From a virus, in IMG/VR virus record IMGVR_UViG_3300005436_000020, positions 1 through 36,473 of that record: a DNA stretch of 36,473 bases; one strand, 5' to 3'. The position numbers and the translations under genes were made by a program. Below are positions 1,972-36,473 of the stretch, in pieces. A model generated the notes under the pieces. The model did no database searches and had not been told where the DNA came from. It was given only the letters and a program-made list of their open reading frames with translations. Positions within the stretch are counted from its first letter, which is position 1, and each line of letters opens with the position of its first letter.

Positions 1972-2290
1972 CAGTCACCTCCACAAGTATATACCGCTTC
2001 GATAAATCTAGATGGCATGCATAACGCTCATTAGGTTCTCCAGACCTCAGATATTTTCCAGAATTTTGAACATGCACTTCGTCTTCCTTTGACTTACAAT
2101 CTTTTGGATCGGATATCCTGCAAATTTCCCCACAATTATTTAAATAAATATCTCCCATCCGGATTTCTCGCTTAGATTTTTCTGTAAATTCATTAACGCA
2201 ATCGATTAAATAATCGTTCCTAGACGATTGAACCGCCCAAACAGCAGTTATTTTGTTTAATAAAATATTCGCTTCTTCTCTAGTCAACAT
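1961..2290 (-). CDS. Hypothetical protein (109 aa), MLTREEA start
   Basis: The start at 2290 is supported by GGAG eight nt upstream; a longer frame to 2323 has no such site. The N-terminus (MLTREEANILLNKI) resembles the two other MLTKxE proteins. The C-terminal half has IRMGDIYLNNCGEICRI, a small beta-rich segment reminiscent of the GDI motif of YopX-like proteins such as its upstream neighbour. It overlaps that neighbour by 11 nt. Function unknown. Confidence 0.6.
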   Translation of the reverse strand: MLTREEANILLNKITAVWAVQSSRNDYLIDCVNEFTEKSKREIRMGDIYLNNCGEICRISDPKDCKSKEDEVHVQNSGKYLRSGEPNERYACHLDLSKRYILVEVTDAD

Positions 2291-2855
2291 TTTCTTCTCC
2301 AAATTTATATACTTCAACTTCACCCGCTTTCACTTGCCTTAACCCTTCAAGAGCGTCTTTAACAAACTGCGGGGGCAATTTCTCTTCTTTCATCAATTCA
2401 GAATTTTCTTTCCCAAATTGTCCCCAGTATTTAACGCCCTCTTTAACGAAGTCCTCTTGCCATTTTAATTCTTTGAGATCAACTAAATAATCTTCAATAC
2501 AAAGAGAAGGAGGGAGATCTGTATGAAGCACCTCTGGATTCTCATGATTATTCCCAATAATCGTTAATTGCTCTGAATCATAAGCGCCGCAATGAATTTG
2601 AATATCTTTAAAAATAAAACATCCATCCTCAAAAACCACCACATCATTACAACTACTCGTAGGTTCTTGAATATGCACTATATCGCCTTCAAATATTTCT
2701 TGTTCATTACAATCTAGTTTTTCGGTCGTCCTCATCCAAATATAATCGTCATCATCATTCAAATACATATACACGCTGTCTTCACTCATCATCTCTTCAG
2801 CAGTAATCATGATTTTAATATCTTTGTTCCAAGCTCGTTGTTTATGTGGCCTCAT
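2280..2855 (-). CDS. YopX-like protein (191 aa)
   Basis: Residues about 1-110 fit the phage YopX family: the N-terminal RPHKQRAWNKDIKIM, a middle strand YIWMRTTEKLDCN, and the hallmark QEIFEGDIVHI, then a beta-rich part. The C-terminal 80 residues are charged and helical, an extension beyond the usual domain. YopX proteins are common in temperate phages but have no established function. It is the first gene downstream of the candidate origin, and its start is followed by overlapping small genes down to rusA. Confidence 0.7.
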   Translation of the reverse strand: MRPHKQRAWNKDIKIMITAEEMMSEDSVYMYLNDDDDYIWMRTTEKLDCNEQEIFEGDIVHIQEPTSSCNDVVVFEDGCFIFKDIQIHCGAYDSEQLTIIGNNHENPEVLHTDLPPSLCIEDYLVDLKELKWQEDFVKEGVKYWGQFGKENSELMKEEKLPPQFVKDALEGLRQVKAGEVEVYKFGEENVD

Positions 2856-2934
2856 TTTTAATTCTCCGTACGTTGTTATTAATATCCTTGTTCATAATAA
2901 TAATAAAACAACCTCCTGTCAACCCTCTTTTGAG

Positions 2935-3175
2935 ATTTTTTTTAGAAAGAGGATTTTTTCGATTGAAAATCTTTCTTTGTTAATATTTCTTTTAATATCA
3001 GTATTAATATCAATATTTATATACAGTAAAGCTACTTTACTACCCTAGTAAAGACACTTTACTACCTGGTAAAGCTACTTTACTACCCCCTGGTAAAGCT
3101 ACTTTACTACCATGTGTATAACCTGTGGATAAGTCTTATTCTTCTTTTGCAATCATAAACATATCCTGTGGATAA
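2935..3175. other. Candidate replication origin: AT-rich tract, four iterons, three DnaA boxes
   Basis: Four direct copies of a 19-bp element (GTAAAGCTACTTTACTACC) lie at 3026-3044, 3048-3066, 3069-3087 and 3093-3111. The second differs in two bases (GAC for CTA in the centre plus neighbour). Start-to-start spacing is 22, 21 and 24 bp, about two helical turns. Each iteron contains the inverted repeat GTAAAG-N3-CTTTAC. Directly beside them are DnaA-box matches on the minus strand: TTATACACA (3113-3121) and two perfect TTATCCACA (3124-3132, 3167-3175). A very AT-rich stretch (about 2935-3022) with repeated AATATCA could unwind. The layout resembles lambda ori, and a winged-helix gene is adjacent. 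Confidence 0.7.
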
Positions 3176-3206
3176 CTTTTATTTAATAGAGATATTGCTT
3201 AATTAT

Positions 3207-3521
3207 TTAAGTATATTTGATAGGGCTTTCTTTGAATGAAATAATTAAATCATTGTTTATAATGTAATAGTTTGATTTATTATTTCCACCCTTTTTCCTT
3301 TTCTCGACACTGATTATCCCGATAAACTCTAGTTGTTTTAAAGCTGCGATAACGGTTGGTTTAGAGAGACGGCATTTTTTTGCAATTGTATTGAGCGAAG
3401 GGAAGCACGCCCCTGATTGTCCATCATGAGTATGACAGGCTAAGCATAATAGAACATGATGTTGACATGCTGTCATGGGGAGCTTGGAGTTCATTATAGA
3501 GACCATTAACGAAGTGCTCAT
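3207..3521 (-). CDS. Winged-helix DNA-binding protein, candidate origin binder (104 aa)
   Basis: Residues about 40-85 form a winged helix of the HTH_36/replication-protein-O type: FPSLNTIAKKCRLSKPTVIA, then a recognition helix and the wing GIISVEKRKKGGNNKSNYYI. Such domains begin phage replication initiators, which are usually longer and carry a second domain that loads helicase. Here the protein ends soon after the wing. It lies next to the four iterons, which it may bind as a dimer since each is palindromic. It could instead be a transcription regulator acting at these sites. It is cotranscribed with the repressor gene upstream. Confidence 0.7.
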   Translation of the reverse strand: MSTSLMVSIMNSKLPMTACQHHVLLCLACHTHDGQSGACFPSLNTIAKKCRLSKPTVIAALKQLEFIGIISVEKRKKGGNNKSNYYIINNDLIISFKESPIKYT

Positions 3522-3533
3522 GGAACGTCCGTG

Positions 3534-3770
3534 TTAATTAAATAAGAAGATATCAGGTCTAAGCGTTTCTTTTTTTATGCCATATCTTGATTCAAGAAGG
3601 AGGCATAGATGAGCGCCCGGTAAATTTGTACCCTTAATGATGAGACTAATTGTTTGTCGGCTTGTATTCAATGCCGCCGCTAATCTATTCTGATTACCTA
3701 ATTGTTTTGACAATCTGCTAAATGTTTTTTTAATGCATTCTCTTTCTTTTGTTGTGAGGTTTGTTATCAT
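3534..3770 (-). CDS. Cro/YdaS-like transcriptional repressor (78 aa)
   Basis: A helix-turn-helix covers about residues 26-50 (NRLAAALNTSRQTISLIIKG). After it comes GAHLCLLLESRYGIKKETLRPDIF, the C-terminal pattern of YdaS/Cro-type small repressors. AAGGGAAG precedes the ATG. It is transcribed divergently from the rightward early operon. The 160-bp gap between them holds a promoter on each strand and a perfect dyad over the rightward -35 box. It is the best candidate for the switch protein of this phage. There is no protease or RecA-cleavage domain, so it resembles Cro more than a full CI. Confidence 0.8.
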   Translation of the reverse strand: MITNLTTKERECIKKTFSRLSKQLGNQNRLAAALNTSRQTISLIIKGTNLPGAHLCLLLESRYGIKKETLRPDIFLFN

Positions 3771-7200: not shown

Positions 7201-8169
7201 TTAGGCAATATTGTATGTTATGCAAATTTCATGGATTTGATTATTTCCAGCATTTGCAAACAAGCCGCCAGCTGCCGTAGCATACACCACAATATTGCCG
7301 GCCGCAGCTATATTCGCTAAACCTACGGCAACCGTTCCATTGCTGCTACACAATACAACGGGGGCTTCTATATTGGATGATGGGCGATATCCAACCGGTA
7401 TAAAAACACCTGAATCTGAACTTCCAATCGCAGCGCCAGCAGCAAGAGATGTAGGCATTCCTTTTATAAATAAACTTACCCAGCCATTTTGTTTCTTCGC
7501 ATACCAAGTAATAGTAGGAGGTACCGCAAAGGCGACTGACCATGTAAACGTTCCTGTTGTTTCTGTATAAAGCGTAAGATTAGTGCCGCCAGCAAAGACA
7601 ATGCCTGAACTACCCACGTTAACGACAGGCGTAAAATCTACAGAGGAAGTAAGAACATTCCCTATAGGTAAAGGAATTGCGCCGCCTGCATTTATTTGAT
7701 TAGCAACCAACCCCTGGCCCGCAGCGTTCACGCCATCATCAAATGCTTTTACACCTGAGAATGTTTGATTGGTAGTGCTTACGCTTCCTGGATTAGCGCT
7801 AGTAGCTAATTCAATTTGCAAAGTATTGCCCGATATAATTGCTGCATTTCCATCAGTCGCATTCGCGGGAGCGACCATAGATAAGCTCGTGCCGCTCACT
7901 AATAAATCCACACCTAAGGTGACAGGATTAACGCCAGTAATAATGCATAACGATGCCCCGTCAGAGCCTACAATAAAAAGCGAATCATTAACGAAAACTT
8001 TATCTGCATCGCCATCAATAAAAGGATGGAAATAGTTAGCTCCAGCTATCGTTGCACGAGTATCGGTTGCGCTTTTATAGGTGTGTTGAATGTTTGTAAC
8101 GCCTTGACCTTGCGCATACGCAGAGTCAACGCCTCTTGCGAATTGAAAATGTTGTAAATTAAATGCCAT
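7201..8169 (-). CDS. Receptor-binding/fibre protein D (322 aa)
   Basis: The first 90 residues (from MAFNLQHFQFARGVDSAYAQ) match the N-terminus of three other proteins in this cluster and probably anchor it to the tail. A short shaft motif near residue 130 (NPGSVSTTNQTFSGVKAF) is the degenerate form of the HPGIVTxxxQ-GG-K-F motif of its relatives. The C-terminal 120 residues form a beta-rich domain with GYRPSSNIEAP, similar in plan to the ends of the two neighbouring fibres and likely to contact the host. GAGGAA lies 8 nt before the ATG. It is the last gene of the leftward unit. Confidence 0.75.
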   Translation of the reverse strand: MAFNLQHFQFARGVDSAYAQGQGVTNIQHTYKSATDTRATIAGANYFHPFIDGDADKVFVNDSLFIVGSDGASLCIITGVNPVTLGVDLLVSGTSLSMVAPANATDGNAAIISGNTLQIELATSANPGSVSTTNQTFSGVKAFDDGVNAAGQGLVANQINAGGAIPLPIGNVLTSSVDFTPVVNVGSSGIVFAGGTNLTLYTETTGTFTWSVAFAVPPTITWYAKKQNGWVSLFIKGMPTSLAAGAAIGSSDSGVFIPVGYRPSSNIEAPVVLCSSNGTVAVGLANIAAAGNIVVYATAAGGLFANAGNNQIHEICITYNIA

Positions 8170-8189
8170 AACAATATTCCTCTTTAATT

Positions 8190-9041
8190 TTATAAAATAG
8201 AGTAAGTAACTGGTGTAGAATAAAATGCATTTATTTGCGCCGCTGTATATGCAGTTGTTAAATTTGCATTATTGTAAACTTCGATAATTCCAGTACTTTT
8301 TACTTTCATTAATCCCGCATTAAAAACACCACCATTAGATACTTGCGCAAAGCAAATCACATCAGCAATCGGTCTAAAACGAGCGGGTAATGCGGTATTG
8401 GAAATATATGCAACGCCAGGTGCGCCTTGACCTGGGGTGGTAACGGTAGCAGGGAACATTAAGTTTACTTGACTACCGCAGCGAATTATTGTGAGCGTGG
8501 CAGATGCGCTTGTATCTGCTGTAAGCGTAAATGTGGTTGCATGCATAGCTTCTTCGTAATAATTTAGGGTGGTAGGAGTTCCGCCAAACGTTAAAAATTT
8601 AACGCCGGAGTTAAACATTTTTATACCAGCAAAGTTTTGATCGAACTGGGTAACAATCCCTGGATGTGTCGCATCTGCTATTTCTAATTGCACGGTAGTA
8701 CCAGAAATCGTAATGCCATTTGCATCAGTAGCAGCCGCAGGAACGGTCATTATAATTGGCGAGCCTGCGTTGCCTAGCAAATTAGCGCCTAATGTAAATG
8801 GGGCTAACGCGGTAATTTTATAAAGACCCACAGTATCTGAAGAAACAACGAGCAATAAATCGCCGACAAATATCTTATCTGTTGCGCCATCAATATTAGC
8901 TGGAAAATATGCGGCAGTAACAATGGTTGCATTTGTATCTGTGCTTTTATAACCATGAATAACAGTGCCTACACCTGCGCCATTAATGGCAGCAGTGGCA
9001 ACACCTCGGCAAAATTGAAATGTATTTAAAGTGAATGCCAT
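8190..9041 (-). CDS. Receptor-binding/fibre protein C (283 aa)
   Basis: It is the shortest member of the four-gene fibre family. The N-terminal anchor-like domain starts MAFTLNTFQFCRGVATAA and includes VIHGYKSTDTNATIV. The shaft motif is IADATHPGIVTQFDQNFAGI near residue 125. The C-terminal domain has a strand pattern with SNTALPARFRPIADV and TGIIEVYNN, the plan of small jelly-roll fibre tips. GAGGA precedes the start. Gaps of 33 and 20 nt separate it from its neighbours. Confidence 0.75.
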   Translation of the reverse strand: MAFTLNTFQFCRGVATAAINGAGVGTVIHGYKSTDTNATIVTAAYFPANIDGATDKIFVGDLLLVVSSDTVGLYKITALAPFTLGANLLGNAGSPIIMTVPAAATDANGITISGTTVQLEIADATHPGIVTQFDQNFAGIKMFNSGVKFLTFGGTPTTLNYYEEAMHATTFTLTADTSASATLTIIRCGSQVNLMFPATVTTPGQGAPGVAYISNTALPARFRPIADVICFAQVSNGGVFNAGLMKVKSTGIIEVYNNANLTTAYTAAQINAFYSTPVTYSIL

Positions 9042-9074
9042 GATAAAAGTCCTCTATATAAATTAAAAATAAAA

Positions 9075-12000
9075 TTAAGCTACTGGATAAGTGATAGCAA
9101 ATCCATCCCATGCCGCTGTCACGCCGGCCGTAAAATTACTGCCGTCAGGAAGGTAATAAATATTCATATTGCCAGCGGTTCCCAATATCGCTACTCCCGA
9201 TGTAACGGCCGCACCTGTCGTTCGCATTAAATAAGAAATATTTGCAATAGGCCTATATTTGGAAACAAGTACTGTATTCATTACAAATGAAGCCGGAGCA
9301 GCCTGCGCTCCCACGCTTCCCGCTGGAAAAAATATGGTTACTAACTTACCCACTCGTCGAATGGTTACCACGAGGGTTCCCGTGGTTAAAGTATTGTTGG
9401 TAAATGTGGTTGAATGAGTATCTTCTACATAATCCTTTATAATCGATTGGTTAGGGTCAGATGCTGTTTGACTGAATTGCATCCCCGCAGATGTAAGCAT
9501 TACTAGAGGTGTTACTTTTACGGAGGTTGCTACCGTCGGCGCAATGGTTAACGCGCCCGCGGTCGTCGCATCAATAATATCTGCCTTCAATGTTTTGGCT
9601 GCGCTTATTGTTGTATTTTGCGCGATAGTAACCGACGTTGCTACCGTGGGAGCTATTGATAATGCCCCCGCAGTCGTTGCGTCTATAATGTCAGCTTTAA
9701 ACGTCTTAGCTGCTGTTAGGGTAGTATTTTGAGTTAAGCTAATGCTCGTCGCTGTCGTAGTTCCTATAGAGAGCGCGCCAGCTGTGGTTGCATCTAATGT
9801 GTTTGTTTTTAAAACTTTACCCGAACTTACAGTTGTATCTTGAGATAATGTTATTGCCGTTCCGGTAGTAGGAGCTAATACCAATGCAACCGCAGTCGAA
9901 GAATCAATGCTGCTGGCTTTGAAAAGTTTTCCAGATGTTACTGTAGTATCTTGAGAGAGCGTTATCGCTGTACCCGTTGTTGGCGCAAGCACCAAAGGTA
10001 CGGCCGTTGAGGCATCGATACTGCTCGCCTTAAACAATTTACCCGAGGTAACTGTGGTGTCCTGAGAAAGCGTAATGGCAGTCGCGGTCGTTGCGCCCAG
10101 AACTAGCGGAGCTGCTGTTGAAGCATCTACACTGCTAGCCTTAAGAAGCTTGCCTGATGTTACGGTGGTGTCTTGTGACAAAGTTATAGCAGTAGCTGTT
10201 GTAGGCGCTAATACGAGTGGCGCAGCGGTAGACGCATCAATGCTAGACGCTTTAAATAATTGCCCTGATGTAACTGTCGTGCTTTTTGCTAACGTGATAG
10301 CCGTAGCTGTGGTAGTTCCAATTGCCAATGCACCAGCCGTTGTAGCGTCAAGCGTATCAGCTTTCAATATTTTACCGGCACTTAATGTTGTGTTCTGAGC
10401 AATCGTTACCGATGTGGCTGTAGTGGGAGCTATAGATAAAGCGCCTGCGGTAGTGGCATCGATAATATCGGCAGTAAAAATCTTAGCGGCAGCAAGTGCG
10501 GTGCTTTGCCCTATAGTGACGCTTGTAGCTGTCGTTGGAGCAATAGAAAGCGCTCCTGCTGTAGCTGCATCAATAGAGTTTGCTTTGAATAATTGACCGG
10601 CCGTTACTGTTGTGTTTTTAGCTAATGTAATTGCTGTTGCAGTAGTTGTGCCAATCGCTAGAGTTCCCGCAGATGTCGCATCTAGTGTGTTTGTATTTAA
10701 TGTCTTGCCACTGCTCACGGTAGAATTTTGTGAAAGCGTTATAGCGGTAGCTGTGGCTGTTCCTAAAACTAAAGGAACTGCACTTATGGTATCAACCGCG
10801 TTTGATAAAACGCCGCCAGCAAAGGATTTTGCCCCACCAAACGTTTGCGCTACTGCTGTTATAATCCCCGGGTGAGTTGCATCAGAGATTTGGCCTTGTA
10901 TCACATTCGTCGTGTTATTGATAATCAATGCATTCGCATCAGAGGCTACTACGGGTGCGCCCGTACTATAATTTGCCCCCGGGGCAACAATGGCCGTGAA
11001 TGTTTTAGTTCCACCGAAGCTCTGCGCTGCTGTGCTCACAATCCCTGGGTGAGTTAAATCTGCATTCTCAAGTTCTATTGTGTTTAATACATTATTAATA
11101 ATTAGGGCATTAGAATCTGTTGGGGCAATAGGTGCGGCTACAGCATAATTAGTGCCGTTCGCTACAATGCCATCTGGAAATGATTTGGTGCCACCTAATA
11201 TTTGCGCGCCTGATGTAACGATGCCTGGGTGGGTAGCGTCCGCTATTTCTGCTTGAAGAGTGCTCGCAGTATTATTTATTAGTAATCCATTTGTATCTAC
11301 GCTGGCAATGGGTGCGCCAATTGTATAATTAGTTCCTGGAAGCGCTGGAAAATTAATAACAGGCGAATTATTAAAATCAATCTGAGCGGCTAAAATAGAT
11401 AAATTAGCGTTGCCTACAATGGATGCTGTTATAAGTTTATTATTAATTGTAACGGATTGGTCGATATTATCGAGCATGACACCGGCATTCCCCGTATCAG
11501 CAATAATCCATAATTGTGGATTAGCGGAGGTAAAGCCATCTCCTTTAAACACCATTCCATAAATATTCGATGAAAGCGCGCTATCTGCGATAGTAAAGCC
11601 AGCCGCATTAGCGGAGTTAGCCGTTGTAATATTTACTCCCACGCCGCCTGCCGCTTCAGTAATATTTAAGCCGGTCGTTGGATTTACTATATTAACATCG
11701 GCATGAAAAGTTTTAATGCCCCCAATATCTTGGGCAACCTCCGTAAGAATTCCAGGATGTGTTTGGTCGGCTTTTTCTAATTGAAAAATTTCACCGGTAA
11801 TAATAGCGCCATTATTGTCAACGGCAACTATAGGAGGCGCGACACTTAAACCTGATGCGCCAGAAAAATAATCAGCGCCCATAGTAAAAGGATTTAATGA
11901 AAGAATGCGATTATATGTCGATGTGTCAGAGCCTTCTATTAAAATATGGTCGCCAACGAATATAAATTCTTGACCTATTCCTTGTCCTAAAAATGGGGGC

Positions 12001-12131
12001 AATAACATGGTAATAGCAGCAACAGTCAAGTCTAAATCTTTATAGCTATGAGTGACGGTCGTAATGCCCCCACCTTGTCCATTTGCAGTGGTAGAGCCTC
12101 GCGCTATTTGTAACTTGGTTACTGAAAACAT
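9075..12131 (-). CDS. Long repeat-containing fibre protein B (1018 aa)
   Basis: Order of parts: N-terminal family domain, residues 1-100 (MFSVTKLQIARGSTTANGQG); four shaft motifs of the form ADxTHPGI(V/L/I)T...GG.K(T/S)F near 121, 297, 357 and 417; then eleven contiguous 37-residue repeats, residues 466-872; and a C-terminal domain of 146 residues with SKYRPIANISYLM, like the tips of fibres C and D. It is probably a trimeric beta-rich fibre reaching towards the host surface. The start ATG lies two nt after the stop of the S74 fibre gene. No glycan-cutting or chaperone domain is visible at its end. Confidence 0.8.
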   Translation of the reverse strand: MFSVTKLQIARGSTTANGQGGGITTVTHSYKDLDLTVAAITMLLPPFLGQGIGQEFIFVGDHILIEGSDTSTYNRILSLNPFTMGADYFSGASGLSVAPPIVAVDNNGAIITGEIFQLEKADQTHPGILTEVAQDIGGIKTFHADVNIVNPTTGLNITEAAGGVGVNITTANSANAAGFTIADSALSSNIYGMVFKGDGFTSANPQLWIIADTGNAGVMLDNIDQSVTINNKLITASIVGNANLSILAAQIDFNNSPVINFPALPGTNYTIGAPIASVDTNGLLINNTASTLQAEIADATHPGIVTSGAQILGGTKSFPDGIVANGTNYAVAAPIAPTDSNALIINNVLNTIELENADLTHPGIVSTAAQSFGGTKTFTAIVAPGANYSTGAPVVASDANALIINNTTNVIQGQISDATHPGIITAVAQTFGGAKSFAGGVLSNAVDTISAVPLVLGTATATAITLSQNSTVSSGKTLNTNTLDATSAGTLAIGTTTATAITLAKNTTVTAGQLFKANSIDAATAGALSIAPTTATSVTIGQSTALAAAKIFTADIIDATTAGALSIAPTTATSVTIAQNTTLSAGKILKADTLDATTAGALAIGTTTATAITLAKSTTVTSGQLFKASSIDASTAAPLVLAPTTATAITLSQDTTVTSGKLLKASSVDASTAAPLVLGATTATAITLSQDTTVTSGKLFKASSIDASTAVPLVLAPTTGTAITLSQDTTVTSGKLFKASSIDSSTAVALVLAPTTGTAITLSQDTTVSSGKVLKTNTLDATTAGALSIGTTTATSISLTQNTTLTAAKTFKADIIDATTAGALSIAPTVATSVTIAQNTTISAAKTLKADIIDATTAGALTIAPTVATSVKVTPLVMLTSAGMQFSQTASDPNQSIIKDYVEDTHSTTFTNNTLTTGTLVVTIRRVGKLVTIFFPAGSVGAQAAPASFVMNTVLVSKYRPIANISYLMRTTGAAVTSGVAILGTAGNMNIYYLPDGSNFTAGVTAAWDGFAITYPVA
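9516..10736 (-). repeat. Eleven tandem 37-codon repeats within fibre B
   Basis: The repeats encode residues 466-872 exactly, 11 x 37 aa, with a consensus near LSQDTTVTSGKLFKASSIDA followed by STAxxLVLAPTTATAIT. The unit is 111 bp at DNA level. Protein identity between neighbours is high, but the DNA differs at most synonymous positions. In copies starting near 10069 and 9958, 14 of 19 compared codons for LSQDTTVTSGKLFKASSID differ while encoding the same residues. Confidence 0.9.
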
Positions 12132-12133
12132 GA

Positions 12134-13942
12134 TTATTGTTTCGCCTTTAATAATTCGATTTCTGCTTGCAATCGTTGAACTTCTTTTAAGAGCATAATT
12201 CCAAGGCGATCGTAATGAACCGTTTGCAAATTATCATCTGCATCATAAGCGCATATGTCAGGGCATATTTTTTCTACATCATCTGCGATTAAACCAAATT
12301 GCTGATGCTTGCCATGACCGGCAATATAATCAAATCGTACAGGGGCTAACATACTAATTATTGCGGCATTTTCTACGGCTGAAATTTCTTTGATATTTTC
12401 TTTTTGACTTCGCAAACTGCTCACAGTTCCCAGCTGTCCTGTAGAGGACACAAGAACGGCAATTGCATCTGCTGCGTCAGTGGTGATACCTCGTATACCC
12501 GCCTGGAAATTCTTAACTTGAGTTCCAGCGGTTCCAATACGAACTACTCCTACATCTCCTACAACGCCCACATGTGCAATATCAATATTCGCATTGTTAT
12601 TAACGGTTAATGCAGACCCGGCGTTATAGCCTAGCGCTAAATTATTAGACCCTGTTGTAATGGTGTTCAAAGTGTTAACGCCTAAGGTGCTATTACGACT
12701 GCCACTTGCAAGAAGAATCAAAGTTCCTTCGCCGATGCCTGTATTTTCGTTCCCCGTGGTATTGATATTTATTGCTGATTCACCGACGGCGGTATTGCTA
12801 AATCCTGTGGTATTAAGCTCTAAGGCTCCCCTTCCTGCTCCCGTATTTTCACCCCCCGTGGTATTGCTAGCTAAAGCGCGAGACCCAAAAGCAGTTCCAT
12901 TAGACCCGGTCGTATTAACTCTTAACGCTAAATATCCTACCGCGGTCTGTTCGCCCTGCAAATTAAGGCTTAATGTTTCAGAGCCTATAGCGACACATCC
13001 TTGAGCACCCACATTACTGGAACTAGCATTATTACCAATCGCCACATTATCCTGCGCCGTAGTGGCCGCGGTTAATGCATTGGTTCCAATCCCAATATTT
13101 CGCGCCCCACTTGTAATGCTATCAGCAGCATTAGTACCGATTGGAATATTGGAATTGCCTTGCATGAAATTTATAACGTTGGCCGCTACAAAATCCACGG
13201 TTGCAGAATTAATAACAGTTTGTGGCGCATTAAGAGCAATCGCCGTTGCATTGTTATCGCCAATAAGTAATGGAATTGCTAAATCAGAATCGACCCCGTT
13301 CGTTAATATTAAAGGAGGGAACACATAAAATGCAGTCGAGGTAGAGGTAAATACATCGGTACTATTTACAGCAAAAGAAAATGCATGCGTGCCAGTATCA
13401 TAATAAATAAAATCATCATTGGGAGATGTGCCAGCAAAGTGCCACATAATTTCTTGGGCATTTACATTTGTATTATCAAAGAAAGTATTTACACTTCCTA
13501 AGCCTATTTTTTTAGCTGCAAAATCTTTTACACCACCAATCGTTTGAGCGACCGCTGTGACAATTCCAGGATGAGTTGCATCAGCTATTTCTGTATGAAG
13601 GGTAGTACCACTAATAATAACGGCATTACCATCTGTCGCCACGACCGGTGCGCCAATACTTAATCCCGCACCCTCAGAAAATAAATCAGTACCCACAACA
13701 AAAGGGTCTAACGTAAGTATTTGGCAGCACTGCGTAGAATCTGAGCCGAAGATATAAATCAAATCATTAATATGTAAAACTTCTTGGTCAGCTCCTTGTT
13801 GTAAATACGGTGGAAAATAAGCTTTAATATCATCAACGACGCTCGCCATATCAATGTAAGTATGGAATGTGACAGTATAATTCCCTTGGGCATTTCCAGT
13901 CGATGTGCCACGATTAATTTGTAAATTTTGAACGGTAAACAT
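12134..13942 (-). CDS. Fibre protein A with S74 self-cleaving chaperone end (602 aa)
   Basis: Residues 1-100 are the shared family domain (MFTVQNLQINRGTSTGNAQG). One shaft motif, IADATHPGIVTAVAQTIGGV, is near 119. Residues about 280-445 are glycine/asparagine-rich 17-residue repeats of the form NTTGxxNTAxGxxALxx, like YadA-type head repeats. From about 508 comes a Peptidase_S74 intramolecular chaperone (SSLRSQKENIKEI, FGLIADDVEKICPD, then HYDRLGIMLLKEVQRLQAEI). In this family the chaperone helps trimer folding and is then cut off before the conserved serine. The start at 13942 follows GGGGAATAAAT; the extension to 14008 overlaps the upstream gene and is rejected. Confidence 0.85.
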   Translation of the reverse strand: MFTVQNLQINRGTSTGNAQGNYTVTFHTYIDMASVVDDIKAYFPPYLQQGADQEVLHINDLIYIFGSDSTQCCQILTLDPFVVGTDLFSEGAGLSIGAPVVATDGNAVIISGTTLHTEIADATHPGIVTAVAQTIGGVKDFAAKKIGLGSVNTFFDNTNVNAQEIMWHFAGTSPNDDFIYYDTGTHAFSFAVNSTDVFTSTSTAFYVFPPLILTNGVDSDLAIPLLIGDNNATAIALNAPQTVINSATVDFVAANVINFMQGNSNIPIGTNAADSITSGARNIGIGTNALTAATTAQDNVAIGNNASSSNVGAQGCVAIGSETLSLNLQGEQTAVGYLALRVNTTGSNGTAFGSRALASNTTGGENTGAGRGALELNTTGFSNTAVGESAININTTGNENTGIGEGTLILLASGSRNSTLGVNTLNTITTGSNNLALGYNAGSALTVNNNANIDIAHVGVVGDVGVVRIGTAGTQVKNFQAGIRGITTDAADAIAVLVSSTGQLGTVSSLRSQKENIKEISAVENAAIISMLAPVRFDYIAGHGKHQQFGLIADDVEKICPDICAYDADDNLQTVHYDRLGIMLLKEVQRLQAEIELLKAKQ

Positions 13943-13944
13943 AT

Positions 13945-14250
13945 TTATTCCCCAGTGTGCCAGGTAAGATTGGTAGCAGACGTTCCCGCAGTAAGAACGC
14001 GAGTACATATTAACCAGTGATAACCAACTTCGGCATTTAAAACTACTTGCGTAGTCAGAGCACCATCTTTTATAAAAGGAGTTTCAACCGTTAAATTGCC
14101 AGCAGTTCCTACATGAATTGCTTTTGCAACGACGTGCTCTGGAAAGAATGTATCTAATACAACAAGGCCACTTTCGGTGAACGGACCAATTAAATCGCTG
14201 GTTCTTGATATTTCATTTACCCTTTTTTGTCTCACATCAACGTTTGCCAT
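13945..14250 (-). CDS. Small virion-associated protein (101 aa)
   Basis: A beta-rich protein beginning MANVDVRQKRVNEISRTSDL, then FFPEHVVAKAIHVGTAGNL and a tail WLICTRVLTAGTSATNLTWH. It lies between the collar-like protein and the fibre cluster, with its stop two nt before the S74 fibre ATG. It may be a minor tail or adaptor protein; no family is recognised. Confidence 0.6.
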   Translation of the reverse strand: MANVDVRQKRVNEISRTSDLIGPFTESGLVVLDTFFPEHVVAKAIHVGTAGNLTVETPFIKDGALTTQVVLNAEVGYHWLICTRVLTAGTSATNLTWHTGE

Positions 14251-24687: not shown

Positions 24688-27063
24688 TTAAGGGTTAGGT
24701 TGCTTTTGCTCTGAAGCTTGTTGCTTCAGCTCTCCTTCAGAGTGCAGGTCATGGATATGTTTCATTGTCTCAAAATGCTTATCAGCAACAGAGGAGTGAG
24801 CGGCCGCAATTTTAGCTGCACTTTCTACCATGGCAGCTTTATAATCGAGGCCTCCACGCTCCAAATCGGCGTAAGCGCGTATCTTAGCGGATTGCCCTTC
24901 AATTTGAGCCTGCTCCATTTTTACCGCATTTAATTCACGCTGAGCTTGAACTTTTTCTTGCTCTCCCTGAACTTTGATTGCGCTTAATTTTAATTTATCT
25001 TGCTGCAATTGTTGCTCCATTTGCTGCTCCATTTGCTGCGCTTGCTGTTGGGGGCTTGGTGGTGGCGGAGGTGGCGGCGGCTTACCATCTGCTTTAGCTA
25101 ATACATCCAGTGGAACAAGCGTTTTTAATCGATTAACTAATTCAATATTGTCTTCAATATCAATGTTCTTAGCAATGATATCAGCGATTAATGAGAACAT
25201 TTGTGGGCCACCAGCTTGAGCTAAGCTCACCAATATCTTCAATGCTTCTTCTTTTTGTGCGGCATAATTAGCGCCCGCTTTAATCGTTACATCAAAGTCA
25301 CCCTTACTTAAATCATTACTCATCCCGCCAGCAATTTTCTTATTCACAGTTACTTGTTTAGACTTCCCGTCAACCCCATGAATAGAAAGCGTGCGTTCCG
25401 TATCATAAACTTTAGGAAGCAACGAAAGGATAACGCGACCTATTTGTTCTTGCGCTATTTTTAAGTTATCAAAGAAAACAAGATTAGATGAATTACCAAT
25501 CTTTTGTTGTGCTTCAATTGCTTTTCCAGAGAGCTGCCCAAATGCGCGACCATCATTCATTTCTTGCGGATAACCAATAATACTACGCAAATCTTTGTCA
25601 GCCTGTTGCATATTCAATAGCAGCGTTTGAGGTAATTCAGGAACCGGCAATCGAGCGGGGGGGGCTTGTGTTTTGTCATCTGGATTATAGAGCAGGACGC
25701 CGGCTTGATTTGCTGGATTTTTCCAAAGAATTTCAAATCCCTCTATATTACTAGGAGTTGCCAGAAATTGTTCTCGACGATTATTCTTGGCGGCTTGCGC
25801 TGTATCGCTCGCTAAGAAATTTAAGAATCGTTGCGGGTCTTTTGCATAAGTAACTAAAGATGTAACAATCGTTTGACCTTCAATTACGACCTCATCACCC
25901 ATAACGGCAGCAAAAGGAAAGTGACAACTTGGCCATTCATATTCTTCAATCACATGACCAGAAATGACTTTATAGCAAATAATTTTATAATCACGCGAAC
26001 GCCTTTTGCTAACAATAGCTGGCATTACTTCAACGCCAGGTGTAATGAGTGGCGCTTGTGCCGCCATTGATGGCATTGCCCCAGGCATTCCCGCCTGGGG
26101 CAATGCAGGACTTGGTCGCCCTTGAGGCTGCCCGGCTTGACCAGGCATTTGTGGTTGTTGTGGCGGCATTGGAGGAGGCATATTAGCGGCTTCTTGCTGT
26201 GCCCGCTCTGCATTATATGTTTCTATACCGCTTGCAATTCCTTCGGAGTCGTCTGCTTCTTGTTCTTCGGGTGTTTCTAATGCTTTTTTACGTTTATTAT
26301 ATTCTTTCTTAGTTATTTCTTCGCCATTACTGAGCTGATATAAAGTAAAGTTATACCATTGCTTTTCATAATACTCGCAAATAGTAATTCCTTTAATGTC
26401 GCCCCAATTAAAATATTCTGTGTTATAGCTTGCTGGGAAGGATTGCGGATAGGGAATGTCAGGGTATTTTTCTTCGAAATCATCCTTGTTCATGGTGTCA
26501 TAACGGAACATGAAGTTACCGTCTGTCTTGGTAGAGGTTAGTGCATTTGGATCCCATCCCACCCTATCTGAATACTTTTCAATTTCGATGAAAATGTCTT
26601 GCTTAAATGATTTTGGCGATATGTAATCCGTTCGAACCCTAATGAACCCCATACCACCACTAACTACATTAGCGAAGGCATTTTGATAGGCAAGATGCGC
26701 CTTAGACCGATACTCAATCCCACGAATAATATCGGCACGCAACGTGATATCTTCTTGGCTACCAATCCCATTTAAAGAACTAACTTCTAAATTAGATGTA
26801 TTAAACCGTTGCTCACCAATAAGCTTACGATAATAATCATAAAGTTTATTATAGGTAAAGATTGGTTTATTTAAAGCTTGGAACGATTGACGCTCGAATA
26901 ACGTCCATTGGTCATAGAATAAGAATCGACGGTCAATGCGGCAACGATTGATATTATGCTGGTTAAACCGAAAATAACGATTAACGTTTTTATAAATACG
27001 GTCGAGAATGGCCTTGTCGCCAGTATCATCACCGAAAGCATTAATGTTATAGGAGTCTTGCAT
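24688..27063 (-). CDS. P22-like portal protein (791 aa)
   Basis: It forms the ring through which DNA enters and leaves. Order: an N-terminal part (NRCRIDRRFLFYDQWTLFER), the core with GGMGFIRVRTDYISP and DRVGWDPNALTSTKTDGNFM, and a P/Q/M-rich insertion about residues 280-340. The stem region has RSIIGYPQEMNDGRAFGQLS and GKAIEAQQKIGNSSNLVFFD. It ends in a long coiled-coil, Q-rich barrel (QQAQQMEQQMEQQLQQDKL). A long C-terminal barrel is typical of P22-type portals. It starts 4 nt after the terminase stop, with only a weak ribosome site. Confidence 0.85.
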   Translation of the reverse strand: MQDSYNINAFGDDTGDKAILDRIYKNVNRYFRFNQHNINRCRIDRRFLFYDQWTLFERQSFQALNKPIFTYNKLYDYYRKLIGEQRFNTSNLEVSSLNGIGSQEDITLRADIIRGIEYRSKAHLAYQNAFANVVSGGMGFIRVRTDYISPKSFKQDIFIEIEKYSDRVGWDPNALTSTKTDGNFMFRYDTMNKDDFEEKYPDIPYPQSFPASYNTEYFNWGDIKGITICEYYEKQWYNFTLYQLSNGEEITKKEYNKRKKALETPEEQEADDSEGIASGIETYNAERAQQEAANMPPPMPPQQPQMPGQAGQPQGRPSPALPQAGMPGAMPSMAAQAPLITPGVEVMPAIVSKRRSRDYKIICYKVISGHVIEEYEWPSCHFPFAAVMGDEVVIEGQTIVTSLVTYAKDPQRFLNFLASDTAQAAKNNRREQFLATPSNIEGFEILWKNPANQAGVLLYNPDDKTQAPPARLPVPELPQTLLLNMQQADKDLRSIIGYPQEMNDGRAFGQLSGKAIEAQQKIGNSSNLVFFDNLKIAQEQIGRVILSLLPKVYDTERTLSIHGVDGKSKQVTVNKKIAGGMSNDLSKGDFDVTIKAGANYAAQKEEALKILVSLAQAGGPQMFSLIADIIAKNIDIEDNIELVNRLKTLVPLDVLAKADGKPPPPPPPPSPQQQAQQMEQQMEQQLQQDKLKLSAIKVQGEQEKVQAQRELNAVKMEQAQIEGQSAKIRAYADLERGGLDYKAAMVESAAKIAAAHSSVADKHFETMKHIHDLHSEGELKQQASEQKQPNP

Positions 27064-36458: not shown

Positions 36459-36473
36459 CATAAACTATCAAAG
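36459..36473. repeat. Terminal direct repeat, right copy
   Basis: Exact copy of bases 1-15. Joining the ends through this repeat would give a circle of about 36,458 bp, in which the tRNA-like gene runs towards the late leader region. Confidence 0.85.

Follow-up and report, generated by a model that had tools for sequence, protein, structure and literature searches.

We analysed a putative replication origin at 2.9-3.5 kb of the IMG/VR virus record IMGVR_UViG_3300005436_000020 (36,473 bp; the whole record is referred to as the window), in which four palindromic repeats (iterons) lie beside the gene for a stand-alone winged-helix protein of 104 amino acids. This gene belongs to a leftward operon starting at approximately 3.77 kb, in which a Cro/YdaS-like regulator is followed by the winged-helix gene, a non-coding segment (2856-3206), a YopX-like gene and, more distantly, RusA. 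In operon direction, the non-coding segment contains three DnaA boxes, the four palindromic dyads and an A+T-rich tract (Table 1). RecT-like and DUF669/SSB-like recombination genes run the opposite way from 3.9 kb.

Table 1. Features of the putative origin region and adjoining genes, in window coordinates.
Feature	Position	Strand	Remarks
Four palindromic iterons	3026-3040, 3048-3062, 3069-3083, 3093-3107		exact matches to GTAAAG-N3-CTTTAC
DnaA box TTATACACA	3113-3121	-	5 bp from the nearest iteron
DnaA box TTATCCACA	3124-3132	-	consensus TTWTNCACA
DnaA box TTATCCACA	3167-3175	-	consensus TTWTNCACA
A+T-rich tract	2935-3022		A+T content 84%; candidate unwinding element, on the same side of the iterons as in lambda
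Least stable 100 bp of the record	3183-3282		alternative candidate unwinding element, on the DnaA-box side
Winged-helix gene	3207-3521	-	104 amino acids; corresponds to the DNA-binding half of O-type initiators; recognition helix LSKPTVIAALKQLE
Cro/YdaS-type helix-turn-helix regulator gene	3534-3770	-	immediately precedes the winged-helix gene on its strand; cro-O order as in lambda
YopX-family gene	2280-2855	-	occupies the place expected for the remainder of O, then P
Promoter-like site	2922-2894		the strongest such site; by the YopX-family gene

Exact matches to GTAAAG-N3-CTTTAC occur four times in the record, all of them at this locus (spacing 22, 21 and 24 bp); a first-order Markov model predicts 0.0 such dyads per window. 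The iterons have a TACC tail in common, and their centres read, in order, CTA, ACA, CTA and CTA. A scan with the DnaA-box consensus TTWTNCACA revealed only one further box in the record, at 25340. Single boxes are ordinary (4 seen, 4.9 expected per window) and do not exceed chance, while the four dyads far exceed it, as does the clustering of the boxes: three within approximately 60 bp were found in 0 of 100 simulated windows. Positions 2963-3022 of the A+T-rich tract rank third among the least stable 60-bp stretches of the record. Four iterons spaced by 21-24 bp, three DnaA-box matches and an AT-rich tract had been listed in the original prediction, made from the letters alone, and all are confirmed here.

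The winged-helix protein matches HTH_36 with 37.4 bits (cut-off 25), and its AlphaFold model displays a complete winged-helix fold (predicted local distance difference test score, pLDDT, 81). Its alignment to PHROGs of O-like initiators (281-383 amino acids; phrog_1032/391) is confined to their N-terminal quarter to half, bearing out the earlier claim that this gene encodes only the DNA-binding half of such an initiator. The recognition helix reads L-S-K-P-T-V, and the protein ends approximately 18 residues past the conserved S-N-x-Y of the wing. The iterons lie outside the gene, beyond its stop codon (3207-3209). As tested, the protein falls short of full membership in the O family: Phage_rep_O scores below its threshold (15.2 bits; cut-off 28.7), no C-terminal half is present and the iterons are extragenic. 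The C-terminal halves of 13 relatives, and their partner proteins, had no match in the window below E = 0.4. Used as a single-sequence query, the 104-amino-acid protein retrieved zero relatives from IMG/VR and no significant match among solved structures. A fold search returned generic winged helices, including the N-terminal domains of DnaD and of plasmid initiators and MarR-family structures, and was not discriminating.

Related arrays were sought in IMG/VR by the dyads alone, which yielded 53 loci with 2-4 GTAAAG-N3-CTTTAC dyads, mostly 22-24 bp apart; the same array is present in more than 40 viral contigs besides the window. All but a handful lie inside an open reading frame (ORF) that begins with an O-like winged-helix domain, directly after that domain, the exceptions being isolated dyads and the non-coding array of one phage (L005/L030/L034). 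In 29 related arrays, A+T content was higher beyond the last iteron than before the first (Wilcoxon p approximately 8e-5). The relatives of the window protein are longer: all 80 examined in IMG/VR have 220-334 amino acids with a C-terminal half (0/80 under 150 amino acids), and those annotated in phages and plasmids with an intact, complete coding sequence have approximately 210-315; in most cases P, an ATPase or DnaB comes next. Searching related phages recovered the same dyad arrays beside O-like domains, while the full arrangement of the window was found in this genome only. Single DnaA boxes stand by the iterons in two of the 80 relatives, L023 and L040, both with TTATCCACA 16 bp ahead of the first iteron and oriented as in the window; proximity of DnaA boxes and iterons is therefore not unique to the window. 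Apart from these two, the only matches of an IMG/VR search for dyad plus box were single dyads within structural or other coding sequences in unrelated phages; with the box in the opposite orientation it returned L005/L030/L034, L308 and, for the most part inside coding sequences, single dyads. The first of these (L005:1384-1498, L030 and L034:5290-5441) carries four non-coding GTAAAG dyads between two structural genes, flanked by strongly A+T-rich DNA on one side and by a DnaA box on the opposite one; its contig encodes no initiator, and the array is possibly a displaced origin. L308 (8021-8592) and L315 represent a Firmicute-like 49.9-kb element with one GTAAAG dyad, a TTATCCACA box and four TCATATGA-type repeats, followed by an 88-amino-acid stand-alone HTH_36 protein (helix ITKPTLIKAI) and a 215-amino-acid ORF without a Pfam match.

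The recognition helix and the iteron half-site vary together. Nearly all loci selected by the iteron carry a recognition helix of the form S-x-P-[TSA]. Conversely, among 91 loci picked by protein similarity alone, GTAAAG dyads were present in 4 of the 4 with S-x-P-T-V and in 0 of the 87 others. Because related sequences are counted and the trials are not independent, these counts are strong circumstantial evidence and no binding test. L227 (3001-3708) aligns with L023, L042 and L225 and has the same iteron positions (27/33), yet combines S-N-K-T-I with GTGTAA-N3-TTACAC, where L225 has S-K-P-T-V; the comparison reads as a natural specificity switch in which helix and half-site changed together. 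In further relatives, different helices go with different palindromes. Together, these data provide strong circumstantial evidence that this class of winged helix pairs with the GTAAAG-N3-CTTTAC iteron, so that the helix predicts the half-site. The correspondence of S-x-P-T-V to GTAAAG makes O-type origins predictable across viral genomes from sequence alone.

Palindromes next to a winged-helix gene could also be operators of a MarR-like repressor, with no origin present. MarR-family structures are indeed among the fold matches, and tandem GTAAAG-N3-CTTTAC pairs, often in the form TGTAAAG...CTTTACA and with 20-28 bp spacing, are common in sequenced genomes (L107-L222: Bacteroidales, Rhizobiales, relatives of Roseomonas, Streptomyces), many of them outside ORFs and probably operators of some regulator. 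However, these cellular sites are two-copy: among the matches listed, at least three dyads in a row occur only in two O-like genes of sequenced genomes (L141, L155) and, throughout, only in O-like genes except for the phage of L005/L030/L034. In the window, the nearest iteron is approximately 100 bp away from the strongest promoter-like site, the PHROG matches of the protein are replication initiators, and an operator array would leave the DnaA boxes and the A+T-rich tract unexplained. We therefore regard an operator array as very improbable.

We compared the locus with known origins. The lambda origin contains four palindromic 19-bp iterons that are bound by O dimers and adjoined by an A+T region (PMC5043065, PMC3985674), and DnaA-footprinted sites lie close to it, where they affect transcriptional activation rather than loading (PMC3985674). 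Like lambda and other lambdoid phages, including Stx phages, the window has four palindromic iterons with an adjoining A+T tract, a DNA-binding domain encoded just ahead of them, a cro-like gene upstream and DnaA sites nearby. Unlike lambda, it has an O without the C-terminal half, iterons outside the gene, no P gene that was found, three DnaA boxes directly beside the iterons and the half-site GTAAAG. The iteron and helix (S-x-P-T-V) of the window recur in the O-like initiators with in-gene GTAAAG iterons and HTH_36 domains of L023, L040, L042, L225 and Firmicute/Bacteroidetes-type phages, which display the same order of winged helix, iterons and A+T-rich DNA and, in L023 and L040, the adjacent TTATCCACA; these initiators are full length (238-260 amino acids in L023, L040, L042 and L225), unlike the window protein. 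By its iterons, A+T tract and gene order the putative origin thus resembles the lambda type, and the in-gene dyad arrays of relatives and the shared layout uphold the earlier description as lambda-like; the assignment of the 2.9-3.5 kb region to this type is well supported.

Iteron plasmid origins (P1, pSC101, R6K, RK2) also combine initiator repeats with DnaA boxes and an A+T-rich region and use host DnaA, as we propose for the window. Their iterons are by definition non-palindromic direct repeats bound by Rep monomers (PMC5043065), while the window has perfect inverted repeats and a protein consisting of a single winged-helix domain. Because its repeats are perfect palindromes, the window origin is not of the iteron-plasmid type, and the suggested resemblance to plasmid iterons is not supported. 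Maintenance as a phage-plasmid, also suggested, gained no support: neither a ParA domain (AAA_31) nor a tyrosine integrase was detected in the window by domain searches, and no other partition protein in PHROG/Pfam scans of the tested ORFs, in which the ParM model was not searched separately. The best plasmid-borne relatives, in phage-like plasmids of Arsenophonus nasoniae such as paNv_UK9 and paNv_CH13 (approximately 42% identity over 84-88 amino acids), likewise have four palindromic iterons approximately 22-23 bp apart, there located within the gene. However, they encode a full-length O together with P or an ATPase and ParM partition genes, use a TGTCAT-type half-site and have no consensus DnaA box in the array. 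Arsenophonus plasmids with relatives of the window protein also carry phage lysis genes.

As originally noted, no helicase or loader is recognised in the genome. Family searches with DnaB_C (PF03796), IstB/DnaC (PF01695) and lambda P (PF06992) gave no match in the window, whereas their controls were positive in 14, 14 and 3 of 14 genomes, respectively. In lambda, the C-terminal half of O is the helicase-recruiting part, which contacts P. Because this half and a P- or DnaC-type loader are missing, host DnaA most likely recruits host DnaB and its loader, although we hold this role with less confidence than iteron binding and opening of the A+T tract, for which lambda serves as the model. We thus propose, with a probability of roughly 0.55, that the locus is a reduced lambda-type origin at which an O-type domain binds and bends the iterons while host DnaA supplies helicase recruitment. 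Dimers of the 104-amino-acid protein would occupy the four GTAAAG-N3-CTTTAC iterons, giving rise to an O-some-like complex that would wrap or bend the DNA and destabilise the adjoining A+T tract; host DnaA on the three boxes would then bring host DnaB and its loader, in place of the C-terminal half of O and of P. The ingredients of this mechanism are known separately, since DnaA assists Rep proteins at plasmid origins (PMC4980987, PMC5043065) and lambda has DnaA-bound sites near its origin. That host DnaA has fully taken over from the helicase-recruiting half of O and the loader, so that the phage would contribute just a dimeric DNA-binding domain to mark and bend its origin and would depend on DnaA for helicase loading, is a more tentative proposition.

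The helicase might instead be recruited to a lambda-type origin by the 104-amino-acid protein itself or via an unrecognised small phage protein, with the DnaA boxes only modulating transcription or opening. The behaviour of the DnaA sites near the lambda origin (PMC3985674) would fit such a role, and many small ORFs of the window have either no PHROG match or a match to one without known function. A protein ending so soon after the S-N-x-Y motif, however, has little room for a DnaB-binding part, and three boxes within 63 bp are unusual given the single boxes in only 2/80 relatives. We consider direct recruitment rather unlikely.

Alternatively, the locus could be a decaying remnant of an O gene that lost its C-terminal half by deletion, with the iterons and the domain lingering while replication proceeds by another route, i.e. 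from a different origin or by recombination priming with the RecT-like and SSB-like proteins. In keeping with decay, one frame of the iterons still reads GSKVALPGGSKVALPGSKVSLLG after an LSTG shared with L023, and resembles the coding iterons of relatives; furthermore, the Arsenophonus plasmid paPv2 (L099:2995-3600) carries an unannotated O-like gene broken by stops right after four iterons. Stop codons are present in all three frames between the stop of the winged-helix gene and the iterons, or among the iterons, and a single frameshift is therefore ruled out. Against decay, the four dyads are perfect, and the ORF is intact, keeps the 12 residues invariant in an alignment of mixed, divergent relatives and stops just past the domain. 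In addition, the box by the first iteron is common to L023 and L040, and the window has two more. A decaying remnant thus appears improbable.

Several observations weigh against the reduced origin with DnaA-mediated helicase recruitment. The tract at 2935-3022 and the DnaA boxes flank the iterons on opposite sides, and at plasmid origins Rep normally participates in helicase loading. The DNA-binding half of lambda O is not known to support replication alone, and small unannotated genes could conceal an unrecognised loader. The minimum of the circular cumulative GC skew, at 3329, is near the origin, but this check is confounded because divergent transcription starts at approximately 3.8-3.9 kb. 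Stand-alone domain, iterons and boxes occur together in one genome only, and the sister contig G001 (syntenic; terminase 81% identical) stops just short of the origin region. An SSB-based search for further sister phages returned this contig alone, and the origin region has no nucleotide relatives in phages; the matches returned from phages and plasmids were A+T-rich chance similarities. In the open-access literature we found no description of iterons and DnaA boxes combined with an O DNA-binding domain that stands alone. If the proposed mechanism is correct, the locus would be an intermediate between lambda-type origins and those of the DnaA/iteron-plasmid type, an O initiator could lose its helicase-recruiting half where host DnaA does that work, and the window would offer a minimal two-component system for asking what an initiator does besides recruiting the helicase.

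The 15-bp direct repeat CATAAACTATCAAAG occurs at both ends of the record (within 1-100 and at 36459-36473) and suggests that it is complete; IMG/VR classes it as linear. Rfam and ARAGORN searches gave zero matches. Beside the terminal repeat lies a minus-strand tRNA-Ser-like sequence without an ARAGORN call, possibly an attachment site or a degraded tRNA. The structural gene set is podovirus-like: the PHROG/Pfam scans gave matches to portal, major head protein, head closure and terminase. Several adjacent tail-fibre-like genes (7201-14008) have a related N-terminal module in common, with long internal repeats at 9075-12131 and a C-terminal Peptidase_S74 chaperone domain at 12134-14008.
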